DNA from: a virus
Length of the DNA stretch: 38,853 nucleotides
IMG/VR virus record: IMGVR_UViG_3300030450_002719
Location: 1 to 38,853 of that record
Strand: one strand, 5' to 3'
Below, one piece after another: positions 20,243 to 32,850 of the stretch. How positions within the stretch are numbered: position 1 is the stretch's first letter; each line of letters starts with the position of its first letter. The position numbers and the translations under genes are program-made. The notes beneath the pieces are model-generated. The model was not told the DNA's origin. It searched no databases and worked only from the letters and a program-made list of their open reading frames with translations.

Positions 20243-21499
20243 TTAGTAAATCCTATGGGTAGTCTGCCCCAGGGTTTCTGGTTTAGCCAAATTGAATTGT
20301 TGCAAACATAGATATCCGAAAGCGTCAAAAGCATGATCAACCCCCAAATTTTTGTTAGGTAGACCCGTATTTGGGGCATAAGTAAGAGTGCGAAGACTCT
20401 TAATTAATTGTTTACAACGTGGATGTATTACAGTACGGCGCGTGTTTGTGGCGTCAAGTAGTGCAGTATTAACTGCTGTGATTTTGTCTCTAATTTTCCA
20501 CGGAGCACGAGGGCTTGAAACGGTAAAACCACTTCGCCTCAGAATGCTGTGATCAGTTGCCCCCACACCCGCAGTTTTTCTTGCTCCACCAGTGGGGTCA
20601 GGGCAGGCAATTATTCTTCGTTCTACACCATATCTACGCACTACTTCTTCCGAAAAATCCCACGTAGTTGCCCCTCCTGTAAGTGTAATTTCATCGAAAA
20701 CATACAAAATATCGTCGTCTTTTACGGCACAAATGCCCGACATGGGGTCAACGTTAAAATCCACTCCCAGTAATAGGGGCATTACAGAGATATCTTTGGC
20801 TTCTGTTGAGATATTTGCGTCACTGAAGGAAACAGCCACTAAACCAGTTAAATTTTCAAAGCTAGCCTCAAATTCTTGACGAAATGTGCGCTGATCTAAC
20901 TGAGCGCGAGCTGCTTCAACTTCTTTTGCCGGAACGTTACCCCCTTGAACCGTTGTATAACTCCAGCGAGACCATTCCCCCGTCTCATCTTCGGGGACAT
21001 AACACCAAAGATCGTAAAACCAGCTCGCAGTTCCGTCGGGAGTGGAGATAAATAAAGTCCACCCCTGTTTATCGGCGAGTGCGGGTCGAATTACCTCAAA
21101 CCACACTTCGGAATCCATAAATGCGGCCTCATCTAAAACCACGCCCGCCAAACTTCGGCCCCTCAAAGCCATTGCATTTTCGGTTCCTTTTAGTTCAATC
21201 ATGGAACCGTTAATTAGTTCCACCTTTAAATCAGTCTCGTTTTTAGATTTAATCCACTGCGGAGGTATTAACCGCTTTATTTCTTTCCAGGCAATGTCTT
21301 TTGCCATGCGGTAGGTGGGGGCGCAATAAAAATAGGTCTCTCCAGGGCGATTAATTGCGGCACGAAGTAGTTCGATGCAGGATAGGTAGGATTTCCCGAA
21401 ACGCCTTCCGGCAACTAGGACGCGGAAACGACTTTTGTTGTTGAATACCTCCCCCTGCGCCCATCGAAGAGTAAGAGGTTCTGCTGTTTTTACTGTCAT
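20243..21499 (-). CDS. terL: Terminase large subunit (418 aa)
   Basis: ATP-driven DNA packaging motor with nuclease. ATPase: Walker A-like GRRFGKS at residues 31-37, Walker B VVLDEA with D123/E124, and coupling motif ISTPDG at 151-156. Nuclease: first acidic residue D247 in LLLGVDFNVDPMSG, then ACPDPTGGARKTAG near 300 and a late DHAFDAFGYL, giving the RNase H-like triad. The length is a little short but complete. The arrangement is consistent with Terminase_6-type proteins. It is the first gene of the minus-strand late arm; the terS-like gene starts 80 bases away on the other strand. Confidence 0.95.
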   Translation of the reverse strand: MTVKTAEPLTLRWAQGEVFNNKSRFRVLVAGRRFGKSYLSCIELLRAAINRPGETYFYCAPTYRMAKDIAWKEIKRLIPPQWIKSKNETDLKVELINGSMIELKGTENAMALRGRSLAGVVLDEAAFMDSEVWFEVIRPALADKQGWTLFISTPDGTASWFYDLWCYVPEDETGEWSRWSYTTVQGGNVPAKEVEAARAQLDQRTFRQEFEASFENLTGLVAVSFSDANISTEAKDISVMPLLLGVDFNVDPMSGICAVKDDDILYVFDEITLTGGATTWDFSEEVVRRYGVERRIIACPDPTGGARKTAGVGATDHSILRRSGFTVSSPRAPWKIRDKITAVNTALLDATNTRRTVIHPRCKQLIKSLRTLTYAPNTGLPNKNLGVDHAFDAFGYLCLQQFNLAKPETLGQTTHRIY

Positions 21500-27592: not shown

Positions 27593-29956
27593 ATGAACCT
27601 GCTTGAATTCGTCCAGAAACTTCCTGAAACACTTGTATACGCACCTATATACAAAAAGGGAGCAAAGATGCTCTCGCAAAGAGAAGCAACTGGTAAAAAT
27701 CCTCTTGAATCGGCGTTCCAAAGGAAGTTTTCTCCCTCTGATGTTGCTTTTGAGTTAGAGCGCAACAACAAACTCGGAGCTGTAGGACTATTTACAGGTA
27801 TTCGCGGTAATGGAATTGTCATTCTTGACTGCGATAGAAACCTTTCTGCGTTAAAGAGAAAATGGGGAGACACGCTTAAAGGTGCTCCGTGTATTACCTC
27901 CACCAAGAAAAACGCTGCTAAGTACGTCTTCCGCATCCCACAAGACCTTTGGTACGAAGTTCAAGGGCATGGGCTATCTCAGGCAACAGGAGGGTGCTAC
28001 GAGCTCCTGTGGGGCAGACAGGGATTAATTTTTGGTGACTACCCAGGGGGAAAAGTATCCGAACCAGGGCAATACGGCTTCGAAGGGGATCTGGACAATA
28101 TTCCGGTTGCTCCAGGGTGGTTAATCGCCGAGATGAAAGCGTCTAAAGCCGGAGAAGGAGAAGGCTTCGTAAAAAATAGAAAAGCACTTGATTTATCTGA
28201 CAGAACAGAAGATGAAATTGCTCAAATAATCCAAGAATGCTTAAACGCTATTACGCACCAGGGTGCAGGTAGTCGTGAGCATTGGATCAAGATCGGAATG
28301 GCTATCCATTCTGAACTTCCTAACGATCTTGGTTTAACCCTTTGGTCTGCGTGGTCTGCTCAAGATGCTGAATATGCCGATGAATGGGAGGGAAATGACA
28401 ATCCTTGCTCCCAACCCTGGGGTTCCTTTAGTAGTAGAGGAAGTATTGGTTTAGGAACTCTTATCTGGCTAGCGGATCAGGAAGATCCAAAGAGGTTGCG
28501 ATTTCAAGAGTCAAGCAGGGCAATTATTGAGAAAGCGGAAGCTGATCAGGTTCAGAAAATACGGACATCGACTCTTCCTTTCCCAGAGGTAATGAAGCAG
28601 GCAAAAGAAATTCTCCAACTAGAGAATCCTGCGGAAATGAACTACAAGTTGAACGCTCTTGCGCTCCAGGCTGGTTATAGAGATCAGGTTGCATTAGAGA
28701 AACTTATCGTTGATCAGATTCAGTTTGAAGGCGCAACCGGGTTAATGAAGGTAAAGGATCTGATGAATATGGAGGGAAGGAGGGATTATTTGATACCCGA
28801 TGTACTACCTACCCCGTCTGTTGTTTTGGTTTACGGAGCAGGTGGGGACGGAAAGTCAATGTGCGCCTGGGCTTTAGCAAAACATATTGCAACTGGTACT
28901 CCTTTCGTGGTTAAAGGTAAGCATTTACCAGTGCAACAGGGGCCTGTCCTTCTCTTGAATGGCGACCAGCCACTAGTCCAGTTAAAGGAACAGTTATCGG
29001 AAGTCGACTTTCCTTTGGACGACACTACTCACGTTCAAACAGATTGGTCGCTCCAGCGTTATGCCCAGTTTGTGAACTTGATGGAAAGAATTAACCCAAG
29101 TCTTGTGGTAATTGATTCTCTGATTGGGTGCAGTGGAGGAAGGGCATTTGACGAGAACAAATCTGACTTTGCAACTCCTCTTTACTGGCTGACAAGAAAC
29201 AACGGTGTGCTGTTTCCAGCCACAACGATTCTCCTGATCCACCATGCAAATAAGAATGGTGGTTTCCGTGGCACCAGTGCAATTCGTGATGCTGTGGACG
29301 AAACTTGGGCTCTGAAGATGCCATCAGATAAACAGATCGAAACAGTAGGAAAGCACTCACGAATTATCAACGTCGAGAAGTCAAGAAGCGGAAGATCAGG
29401 AACTTCACTGATTATGCGAATGGAAGACGATCTCAGTTTTAGCGTTAGTGACTACACGCCGGAAATGGATAAAGAAGATTCTTCACCTGCGGGAATCATT
29501 GACCGAGTTCTACACAGACTGAGAGTTGTTTATCCAGGGGAGCGCACCAGGGCTGACCTAAATGCTGATCCTCTTGTTGGAGGAAAAGTAGCTGCCATTA
29601 AAAAATCGCTCCAACGTTTAGAAAAGAGAGGATTAATCGAAGTCCGTCACTCTCCACAAGGGAACATATATAAAGCAGTCCTCGCGCGTGGAGAGGGTAC
29701 GTATATGTGTCCCACCCTAGGAAAAGATAGTGGTGGAGAGGAAAAAGACATGGGACAGACCCCTGGGACAGAGCCAAGTTGTCCCACCCCTGACATAAAA
29801 GACCCTGTCCCACCCCCTTGTCCCACCCCAGATCCCAGTGCTGGTACGGAAAGTGCTCTAGATGGGACATCTGGGATATATCCCCGCGCGCGCGAGGGAC
29901 GAACTACCGCTGAAATACAAGCTCTAAAAGAGGCCGCTTTTAAACTATGGGATTAA
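27593..29956 (+). CDS. Primase-polymerase / helicase fusion (787 aa)
   Basis: A replication initiator in one chain. Residues 1-180: bifunctional primase-polymerase (Prim-Pol) domain with GLFTGIRGNGIVILDCDRN; D79 and D81 are the expected metal ligands. Residues 205-295: PriCT-like linker (GAGSREHWIKIGMAIHSE, LTLWSAWSAQ). Residues 400-600: RepA/AAA_25-type helicase with Walker A GAGGDGKS (K421), Walker B LVVIDSL (504-510), and sensor LLIHHANKNGGFRGTSAIRD. Residues about 630-700: winged-helix segment (VAAIKKSLQRLEKRGLIEVR). The last 85 residues are a Pro/Thr/Cys-rich tail with CPTP repeats, whose DNA holds an unusual 7-copy motif. It heads the polymerase operon. Confidence 0.9.
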   Translation: MNLLEFVQKLPETLVYAPIYKKGAKMLSQREATGKNPLESAFQRKFSPSDVAFELERNNKLGAVGLFTGIRGNGIVILDCDRNLSALKRKWGDTLKGAPCITSTKKNAAKYVFRIPQDLWYEVQGHGLSQATGGCYELLWGRQGLIFGDYPGGKVSEPGQYGFEGDLDNIPVAPGWLIAEMKASKAGEGEGFVKNRKALDLSDRTEDEIAQIIQECLNAITHQGAGSREHWIKIGMAIHSELPNDLGLTLWSAWSAQDAEYADEWEGNDNPCSQPWGSFSSRGSIGLGTLIWLADQEDPKRLRFQESSRAIIEKAEADQVQKIRTSTLPFPEVMKQAKEILQLENPAEMNYKLNALALQAGYRDQVALEKLIVDQIQFEGATGLMKVKDLMNMEGRRDYLIPDVLPTPSVVLVYGAGGDGKSMCAWALAKHIATGTPFVVKGKHLPVQQGPVLLLNGDQPLVQLKEQLSEVDFPLDDTTHVQTDWSLQRYAQFVNLMERINPSLVVIDSLIGCSGGRAFDENKSDFATPLYWLTRNNGVLFPATTILLIHHANKNGGFRGTSAIRDAVDETWALKMPSDKQIETVGKHSRIINVEKSRSGRSGTSLIMRMEDDLSFSVSDYTPEMDKEDSSPAGIIDRVLHRLRVVYPGERTRADLNADPLVGGKVAAIKKSLQRLEKRGLIEVRHSPQGNIYKAVLARGEGTYMCPTLGKDSGGEEKDMGQTPGTEPSCPTPDIKDPVPPPCPTPDPSAGTESALDGTSGIYPRAREGRTTAEIQALKEAAFKLWD
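29708..29869. repeat. Seven copies of TGTCCCA / TGGGACA in 162 bases
   Basis: TGTCCCA at 29708, 29780, 29806 and 29819; TGGGACA at 29751, 29764 and 29863. They lie in different codon frames (giving CPT, GQT, GTE, DGT), so the repeat is a DNA feature and not only a protein repeat. A CGCGCGCGCG run at 29885-29894 follows directly. Candidate iteron-like binding sites or origin. Confidence 0.75.
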
Positions 29957-30700: not shown

Positions 30701-30916
30701 ATGACCCAAGACGAAATTTTCTGGACACTCCAGACAGCTATTAAGCATGGTGGTGGTTTTATGCGCCGCCTTGCTGAAGCAGCACTAATTGCTGATGCTG
30801 ACAACAAGGCAAAGATTTTTGAAACATGGCCATCACTTATTTCTGTGTACGGCCCTAGCTCTGTTTTCTATGAGAAACCAAAGAGCCCTGAACTACCTAA
30901 TCTCCATAATTTATAA
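30701..30916 (+). CDS. Small protein before DNA polymerase (71 aa)
   Basis: MTQDEIFWTLQTAIKHGGGF, then MRRLAEAALIADADNKAKIF and ETWPSLISVYGPSSVFYEKP. 'FWTLQTAIKHGGGFMRRLAEAAL..AD..N...I...WP....YGP.S.FY' is a compact helical protein I have seen next to phage replication genes, of unknown role. Its stop overlaps the polymerase ATG (TAATG), so the two are tightly coupled. Confidence 0.75.
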   Translation: MTQDEIFWTLQTAIKHGGGFMRRLAEAALIADADNKAKIFETWPSLISVYGPSSVFYEKPKSPELPNLHNL

Positions 30917-32850
30917 TGACAAACTACACAGTGTACTACGGTATTGAGCATCTTCATAAGCTCAATACATGCACCAGTATTGCCCTAGATACTGAAACAC
31001 TCCAGATTTCACCGGAGCAGGGAAAACTTCGTCTTATTCAGCTTGGTAATAAGGCGCGTGAAACCATTGTTATTATTGACTGTTTTCAATTAGAGGACTC
31101 TGATTGGGAAAAATTAACGCAGTTCTGTGATAACGGGGAGCGTTTTTGGATAGCGCACAATGCTGTTTTTGATATTGCCTGGCTACAGGCGCAAGGAATT
31201 TTCCCTAGAGGGAGGTTTGGATGCACCATGTTAGCCAGCAGACTTCTAAACAATGGCATACCGAATGTAAGTCATAGACTGGACTCTATAAGTAAAAGGC
31301 ATCTGGACATTGAAGTTTCTAAGGAGCAACAGACTTCTGATTGGGGTGCTTTTGAATTAAGTGAAGAACAACTTTTATACGCAGCAAAAGATGTAGAAAT
31401 TTTATTGGATTTAGAAATAGAGCTAGATAAAAGACTAGCTATAGGACAACTTCAAGCAGCTTATGCTTTGGAGTGCAACGCGCTACCTGCCCTTGCTCAG
31501 ATGTGGAGAACAGGTTTGCCCTGGAACCCTCAAGCCTTAGAACAATGTCGGGTTGACTACGAGCACGATGCCAAAGAGATGGGCAGAGAGTTTCTTAGAG
31601 AACTAGATAATGCTTTACCTGAAGACCAAAAACTACCTAGAGAAGGAGATACAAGAATTAAGTACTTGGAAGGGAAACTTTCTGAAATGGGAAACTCTTT
31701 TACAGAAAGAACGATATGGAATAGAGAGCTAGAACAGCTTTACGAAGATAGAGAAGTAGCTGACTTCAATTTACGTACCAAAGATGAGGGCTCTATCCGA
31801 CTCGGTACTAAAAAATATAAAGGGTTCAATATCAACAGCCCTAAGCAGTTACTCGAAAAATTCGAGACAGTGCTGGGTTCCACCCCGAGGGATGTGAACG
31901 GAAAACCCAGCGCCTCGCGTCAAGTTTTGCGGAATTATTCGGCTGATCACGAGGTAATTCAAATGTATCTCACTTGGAAGAAAACGGAGAAAAGAAGACA
32001 AATGATAACTTCAATCCAAGAAAAAATGGACGCAGACGGTTTCGTTCGTGCGTCTTACATGCAGTTGGGAGCAGACACGGGAAGAATGTCCTGTATAAAA
32101 CCCAATAACCAACAAATACCAAGAGACCCTACTTTTAGGCAGTGCGTTGAAGCTCCGGAAGGGTGGAAATTGGTGGACGCTGACTACGGACAGATGGAAC
32201 TAAGACTTGCCGCTGCTCTATCGAAGGATGAAAAGATGATTGAGGTTTTTAAGAATAACGAAGACCTTCATGAAGTAACTGCTGAGGCGATTGGATGCGA
32301 TAGGCAGATAGCAAAGTCGGCAAACTTTGGTCTCCTATATGGAGCAGGAGCAGAGGGTCTTCGAAATTATGCAGGAGCTAATGGGATCAAGATGACTAAA
32401 GAAGAAGCGGAAGAGATTCGTACCAACTGGCTTACTACGTTCAGTGGTATTAAGACTTGGCAAATTAAAAACCAAGAAAAGGTAACTGAAACAGAGCACC
32501 ATGAATGGCCCGAAATTCGTATACCGAAAACAGGGATGCGAAGGTTCGTAAGAGGAGACTTAAACAGAGTTACTGTTAGGTGTAACACCCCCATACAAGG
32601 AGCAGGAGCAGCGATTCTTAAATGTGCGCTTGGTAATTTATGGCCTGAAATTAAAAAAGCAGGAGAAAACAAGGTAAAAATTGCTGCTGCAATTCACGAC
32701 GAAATACTTTTACTTGTTAAAGAAAACGAGGCAGAACACTGGGCTTCTGTTTTACGAGAGAAAATGGAGGATGCGGAGGCTAAATGGTTGGGAGATATCC
32801 CGGCATTAGCAGAAACTTCTATTGGCAAAACCTGGAGGGAAGTCCATTGA
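30916..32850 (+). CDS. polA: Family A DNA polymerase with 3'-5' exonuclease (644 aa)
   Basis: Replicative polymerase. The exonuclease domain (residues 1-190) has D25-x-E27 (SIALDTETLQ), IAHNAVFDIAWLQ with N82/D86, and LYAAKDVEILL with Y155/D159: all three exo motifs are intact. Polymerase motifs: A, LVDADYGQMELRLAA with catalytic D423; B, R463-x3-K467-x3-F471-x3-Y475 in DRQIAKSANFGLLYG; C, AAIHDEILLL with D595. The residue matching E. coli Pol I 762 is Phe (F471), the ancestral, high-fidelity state. There is no 5'-3' exonuclease domain. Length is typical for phage Pol A. Confidence 0.97.
   Translation: MTNYTVYYGIEHLHKLNTCTSIALDTETLQISPEQGKLRLIQLGNKARETIVIIDCFQLEDSDWEKLTQFCDNGERFWIAHNAVFDIAWLQAQGIFPRGRFGCTMLASRLLNNGIPNVSHRLDSISKRHLDIEVSKEQQTSDWGAFELSEEQLLYAAKDVEILLDLEIELDKRLAIGQLQAAYALECNALPALAQMWRTGLPWNPQALEQCRVDYEHDAKEMGREFLRELDNALPEDQKLPREGDTRIKYLEGKLSEMGNSFTERTIWNRELEQLYEDREVADFNLRTKDEGSIRLGTKKYKGFNINSPKQLLEKFETVLGSTPRDVNGKPSASRQVLRNYSADHEVIQMYLTWKKTEKRRQMITSIQEKMDADGFVRASYMQLGADTGRMSCIKPNNQQIPRDPTFRQCVEAPEGWKLVDADYGQMELRLAAALSKDEKMIEVFKNNEDLHEVTAEAIGCDRQIAKSANFGLLYGAGAEGLRNYAGANGIKMTKEEAEEIRTNWLTTFSGIKTWQIKNQEKVTETEHHEWPEIRIPKTGMRRFVRGDLNRVTVRCNTPIQGAGAAILKCALGNLWPEIKKAGENKVKIAAAIHDEILLLVKENEAEHWASVLREKMEDAEAKWLGDIPALAETSIGKTWREVH

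Follow-up and report, generated by a model that had tools for sequence, protein, structure and literature searches.

A TGTCCCA array in the tail of a phage primase-helicase gene as a likely iteron origin within the gene of its proposed initiator

The heptamer repeats described here are real, are under selection at the level of the DNA and evolve in concert, and unrelated phages, too, carry them where replicative helicase genes end. In the window studied here (i.e. the whole stretch of 38,853 bases that makes up IMG/VR virus record IMGVR_UViG_3300030450_002719), seven copies of TGTCCCA lie in the tail of a primase-helicase gene, where the array-bearing part comes after a winged-helix-like stretch of some 70 residues (Table 1). 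This array is likely an iteron origin that is bound by the primase-helicase in whose gene it resides. Iterons placed right after the gene of an initiator helicase are known; what differs here is that the helicase is of the AAA_25 type and that the array lies inside the gene.

The original prediction was that seven copies of TGTCCCA or its complement TGGGACA, spread over different codon frames and followed by a CG run, act as DNA and constitute an origin candidate. The seven copies were recovered exactly as described at 29708-29869, four on the plus and three on the minus strand, irregularly spaced, and with phases 0, 1, 2, 0, 2, 0 and 2 for iterons 1 to 7, so that all three phases are indeed used. 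The accompanying estimate of about five chance copies per window on both strands was also right (shuffles gave 4.25 +/- 2.04), and the 12 copies observed in the whole window were reached in none of 100 shuffles. Because CPT is encoded in one shared frame by three of the four direct copies, CPTP-like peptides might be thought to be the selected entity, with TGTCCCA as a by-product of codon usage. There is next to no chance that this holds, as the copies occupy both strands and every frame and are lost when the codons of the tail are shuffled synonymously with the peptide kept fixed (mean 0.77 copies, maximum 5, in 20,000 shuffles); these shuffles, together with the non-coding arrays of relatives that lack such a peptide (see below), refute a repeat at the peptide level. 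No clear, marked AT-rich unwinding element was found next to the window array. GC skew was rejected as evidence for an origin: its cumulative minimum near 26-28 kb is uninformative because it coincides with a change of gene direction.

Table 1. Features of the primase-helicase gene, its array and other genes of the window
Feature	Position	Strand	Remark
Primase-helicase gene	27593..29956	+	787 aa: PriCT_2, AAA_25, C-terminal winged-helix-like domain and tail
PriCT_2 domain	28229..28474	+	residues 213-294; Pfam PF08707, E 8.7e-15
AAA_25 (RepA-like RecA-fold) helicase domain	28766..29260	+	residues 392-556; Pfam PF13481, E 4.3e-19
Putative winged-helix DNA-binding domain	29480..29683	+	about residues 630-697; proposed iteron reader; weak TrmB/MarR_2 matches
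Codon 670	29600..29602	+	within putative winged-helix domain
5' CG box CCTCGCGCG	29680..29688	+	inverted-repeat arm, in codons for VLARGE
Iteron 1 TGTCCCA	29708..29714	+	exact copy
Iteron 2 TGTCCCA	29751..29757	-	exact copy
Iteron 3 TGTCCCA	29764..29770	-	exact copy
Iteron 4 TGTCCCA	29780..29786	+	exact copy
Iteron 5 TGTCCCA	29806..29812	+	exact copy
Iteron 6 TGTCCCA	29819..29825	+	exact copy
Iteron 7 TGTCCCA	29863..29869	-	exact copy
3' CG box CGCGCGCGCGAGG	29885..29897	+	near-fixed distance from last iteron in many relatives
3' inverted-repeat arm CGCGCGAGG	29889..29897
Family A DNA polymerase gene	30916..32850		just downstream of primase-helicase gene
Terminase large subunit	20243..21499		about 8 kb from array

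The CG run after the array is present as predicted (CGCGCGCGCG, 29885-29894), and the array as a whole is flanked by a 9-bp inverted repeat, CCTCGCGCG and CGCGCGAGG. In many relatives the CG box is found some 18-21 bp past the start of the last iteron, in coding or in non-coding DNA. A covarying flanking stem was considered and rejected: the arms match over a mean of 7.2 bp within a phage, over 6.5 bp when combined across other iteron classes and over 5.3 bp after shuffling, and since the match within a phage is only slightly better than that across phages, the arms represent a conserved CG box.

A protein search with the window protein alone yielded 8 close relatives and an alignment search about 78; retrieval was by protein, though four rows of the alignment came from a motif scan. 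In the tail or 3' DNA after the winged-helix-like domain of the roughly 78 relatives, TGTCCC occurs 352 times in 21 kb, as compared to 71 times in the remaining 328 kb of the same loci, i.e. the tail is enriched about 77-fold. Most relatives carry at the equivalent place an array of 5-11 copies on both strands, in which the copies are near-uniform within a phage and the type differs among phages, namely TGTCCCA (5-9 copies), TGTCCCC (7-8 copies, e.g. L134 and L191-L195), TGTCCA (9-11 copies, L138-L155) or TGTCCTA (6 copies, L201/L202). The arrays thus evolve in concert, as would be expected of sites for one protein. Eroded arrays were seen in L001/L130 and L007, and no clear array in the L158/L160/L161 group of relatives. 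A second motif, TGGAGCG, is 4.8-fold enriched in the array regions of relatives (e.g. L138-L155), where it is interspersed with the iterons and lies on the strand of the gene in 75 of 78 occurrences; it is absent from the window array.

The in-frame part of the tail ranges from 36 to 309 bases among the relatives, while the array stays in place. In five of them (L074, L078, L065, L079 and L123) the frame ends after the first copy and the remaining five copies are non-coding, and in L104 six of the seven copies lie in non-coding DNA. As the arrays persist past early stop codons in many relatives, they are selected as DNA and not for the CPTP peptide. Retention of this peptide with loss of TGTCCCA had been set beforehand as the observation that would speak against a DNA-level role, and the relatives showed the reverse. 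That role is supported by four lines of evidence: where the frame of a relative ends early, the array runs on beyond its stop codon; the copies switch in concert between phages; a motif search that is blind to genes finds arrays where replicative helicase genes end; and variation in the winged-helix-like domain of the protein tracks the sequence of the iterons.

With respect to the latter, a tree was built from the primase and helicase columns of the relatives, on which the iteron class needs five changes. Residue 670 is R in 44 of the 47 TGTCCCA phages, H or Q in all 17 TGTCCA phages, and K in all nine TGTCCCC phages, which occupy two separate positions in the tree and include one member of the sister pair L133 (TGTCCCA, R670) and L134 (TGTCCCC, K670). 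It is the only one among 706 protein columns that changes in all four iteron-class contrasts, that of L133 with L134 included, where about 0.03 such columns would be expected if the separate rates are multiplied as if independent; the pattern emerged post hoc, once the data had been viewed, and comprises few independent events (the five changes of class on the tree). The window deviates from it, as it combines K670 with TGTCCCA, and therefore other residues must matter too. The surrounding stretch AAI(R/K/H)KSLQRL is taken as the putative recognition helix. Assignment of the winged helix is based on the sequence pattern and on weak TrmB/MarR_2 HMM matches below the curated cut-offs; no PDB sequence matched the winged-helix profile significantly. 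The tracking by residue 670 provides indirect support for the primase-helicase's own C-terminal domain as the proposed reader of the iterons.

Viral contigs were also scanned for three close TGTCCCA copies irrespective of the genes present, which gave at least 120 loci. Among the matches listed, copies on both strands within a span of 250 bases were seen at 64 of 120 loci; a control heptamer of equal composition gave 4 of 120. The matches listed include 56 viral arrays with at least five copies and both strands represented. A replicative helicase gene is found at 31 of these 56, in most cases with no more than about 130 bp between its stop codon and the array, and the helicases are of various types (PriCT_2+AAA_25, Prim-Pol+PriCT_1+AAA_25, Toprim+AAA_25, VapE, D5/DUF5906 and DUF927); in the control set such a helicase was present within 1.5 kb at 2 of 120 loci. 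At one of these two control loci (L388), the array of the control heptamer TCTGCCA lies 6 bases past the stop of a Prim-Pol+AAA_25 helicase gene; this seems to be the same layout with iterons of another type.

These associations bear on the reading of the array as an operator, a silencing site or a partition (parS-like) site for another phage regulator, which would control the replication operon. Mixed direct and inverted heptamers would suit such regulators as well, and in two mycobacteriophages repA is directly followed by five direct repeats that form an array of the parS type (PMC7157519). Nevertheless, the arrays go with the 3' end of helicase genes across unrelated helicase families and the iteron class goes along with a residue in a domain of the helicase itself, which makes a separate regulator unlikely. 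A host transcription factor or nucleoid protein that is common to many hosts is a very unlikely binding partner: it could account for the use of the same heptamer next to helicases that have no similarity to one another in their C-terminal domains as far as can be detected (hhalign found none among those of the PriCT_2/AAA_25, Prim-Pol/AAA_25 and VapE groups), but close relatives switch motif in concert and it is the phage residue 670 that tracks the switch.

A terminase is near 17 of the 56 viral arrays listed (one of these 17 is also near a helicase), and 9 of the 56 are near neither. Sixteen terminase-linked arrays form related groups, in which the small-subunit gene (phrog_57, E 1e-34) carries the array at its start. 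An example is L009:3642-3789, just upstream of terminase gpA; the same arrangement, with 5-8 copies per array, occurs in L015, L016, L022, L026, L027, L030, L035, L037, L054, L057, L084, L086, L101, L115 and L125 and in genome loci L548 and L567. DNA similar to these terminase-start arrays is present in 59 E. coli genomes, strain HS included. The terminase-start arrays may be packaging sites of a cosB-like kind in which this heptamer serves as well. Given that a TGTCCCA array lies at the start of the terminase small-subunit gene in one prophage group of enterobacterial type, the window array, too, might be suspected of serving in packaging (cos/pac), with the terminase small subunit as its reader; this is highly unlikely, since the terminase large subunit of the window is encoded about 8 kb away and the arrays of the relatives come after the primase-helicase gene.

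TGTCCCA (core TGTCC) could be a recurrent DNA address that non-homologous phage DNA-binding domains adopted independently, a tentative proposal that we consider rather doubtful at present. Equally tentative is its extension over several unrelated replicative helicase families and one terminase small-subunit family. Such recurrence could reflect a favourable recognition geometry, or a common partner that also reads TGTCCCA.

In bacterial genomes, 16 of 52 arrays are near a helicase and most others are near neither a helicase nor a terminase. Several of the bacterial arrays that were inspected are dispersed palindromic repeats, such as the palindromes TGGGACA...GGGGACG...TGTCCCA beside ordinary metabolic genes in L539, L569, L601, L602 and L606; the genome-wide heptamer scan is contaminated by such repeats and by chance matches. 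One contig, which bears the label of the archaeon Zestosphaera, has nine TGTCCCA copies on both strands (L514:7727-7882), with no helicase found nearby. Arrays of other heptamers, surveyed in 976 kb of control loci, were mostly hairpin arrays and other repeats. Tandem perfect hairpins were observed at L335:2313-2516, L345:5636-5796, L366:3663-3785 and L389:6640-6871; in these arrays (e.g. CCCTGTCCAGTGGACAGGG, four to five times) the stems differ and the flanking context is shared.

Named phages that were found by protein similarity alone carry arrays of various motifs just after the gene, namely GGTCACCCC in Marinobacter PS3, GGTTCA in Alteromonas PB15, TGTACC in Idiomarinaceae 1N2-2, TGTCCC in Salicola CGphi29 and TTATAC in Roseobacter CRP-821. 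As they share the position while the motifs differ, the layout is general and the motif varies by lineage. No array was seen in S-CBS4, Acadian, ctyzp037, Haddon and PPpW-3 (phages of the AAA_25 or VapE type), and in the VapE survey the most distant relatives (L438-L486) were without a clear array.

Several known replication systems resemble the window in part. The alpha protein of phage P4 is a fused primase-helicase whose C-terminal winged helix binds short TGTTCACC-like iterons in both orientations; it differs in that the helicase belongs to SF3, the iteron sequence is another one, and ori and crr lie outside the tail of the gene. Plasmid origins of the RepA/TrfA type have long direct iterons of about 17-22 bp; the window array, with 7-bp iterons in both orientations and no marked AT-rich block, falls outside this type. 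In phage lambda, longer direct iterons are bound by O before DnaB is recruited via P. As in lambda, the iterons of the window are part of the sequence that codes for the putative initiator. The likeness is confined to the layout: O is neither helicase nor primase and the PriCT_2 + AAA_25 primase-helicase is not a homologue of O. The location of the lambda origin inside gene O is mentioned in PMC7157519.

The closest layouts are those of SaPI Rep, of which the C-terminal domain is described as binding iterons that immediately follow the rep gene itself (Ubeda et al. 2007, as cited in PMC7581432), and of SCCmec Cch2, of which the C-terminal domain binds iterons right after its own gene at a putative origin (PMC7581432). 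The window, as read from its sequence alone, shares with the former, as far as that account goes, a putative initiator helicase gene with short iterons at its 3' end. According to the same account SaPI has a helicase of another type, a separate primase and iterons downstream of the gene, whereas the window has an AAA_25 helicase fused to the primase and an array inside the coding tail. Cch2 has three direct iterons of 5 nt and works with a separate primase, CCPol-MP (PMC7581432), whereas the window has seven heptamers on both strands and a fused primase. The window gene resembles the SaPI Rep/Cch2 type in having a short-repeat array at or directly after the 3' end of a helicase gene, and by domain content (Pfam AAA_25 + PriCT_2) it lies outside that family. 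In SGI1, oriV is located immediately downstream of rep, so that an iteron origin adjoins the 3' end of the initiator gene, as is proposed for the window, but with 17-bp direct iterons, a putative DnaA box and AT-rich regions (PMC7433901). In the crenarchaeal plasmid pRN1, 166 bp of downstream sequence are required (PMC4234260). In the open-access literature searched, we found no description of the layout for AAA_25 primase-helicases, and searches for the bare heptamer TGTCCCA gave noise.

The favoured explanation, an iteron origin bound by its own primase-helicase, can be phrased as a mechanism. The C-terminal winged-helix-like domain would bind TGTCCCA in both orientations; we infer that several primase-helicase protomers would thereby assemble the helicase on the array, that the DNA near the array would open, and that copying would then be started by the fused primase together with the family A DNA polymerase that the phage itself encodes. 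By this mechanism the array would be the phage replication origin, or part of it, inside the gene of its initiator.

It was not to be expected that a single heptamer would be used next to helicases that are unrelated and also next to a terminase family, and if the idea of a recurrent address were true, one heptamer could locate origins and packaging sites across many phage lineages. The natural switches of iteron and winged helix, such as L133 versus L134, make the joint change of initiator and origin specificity directly testable. As to the origins of most uncultivated phages, which are unknown, the gene-terminal iteron array that comes with replicative helicases would provide a rule that can be applied to metagenomes from sequence only.
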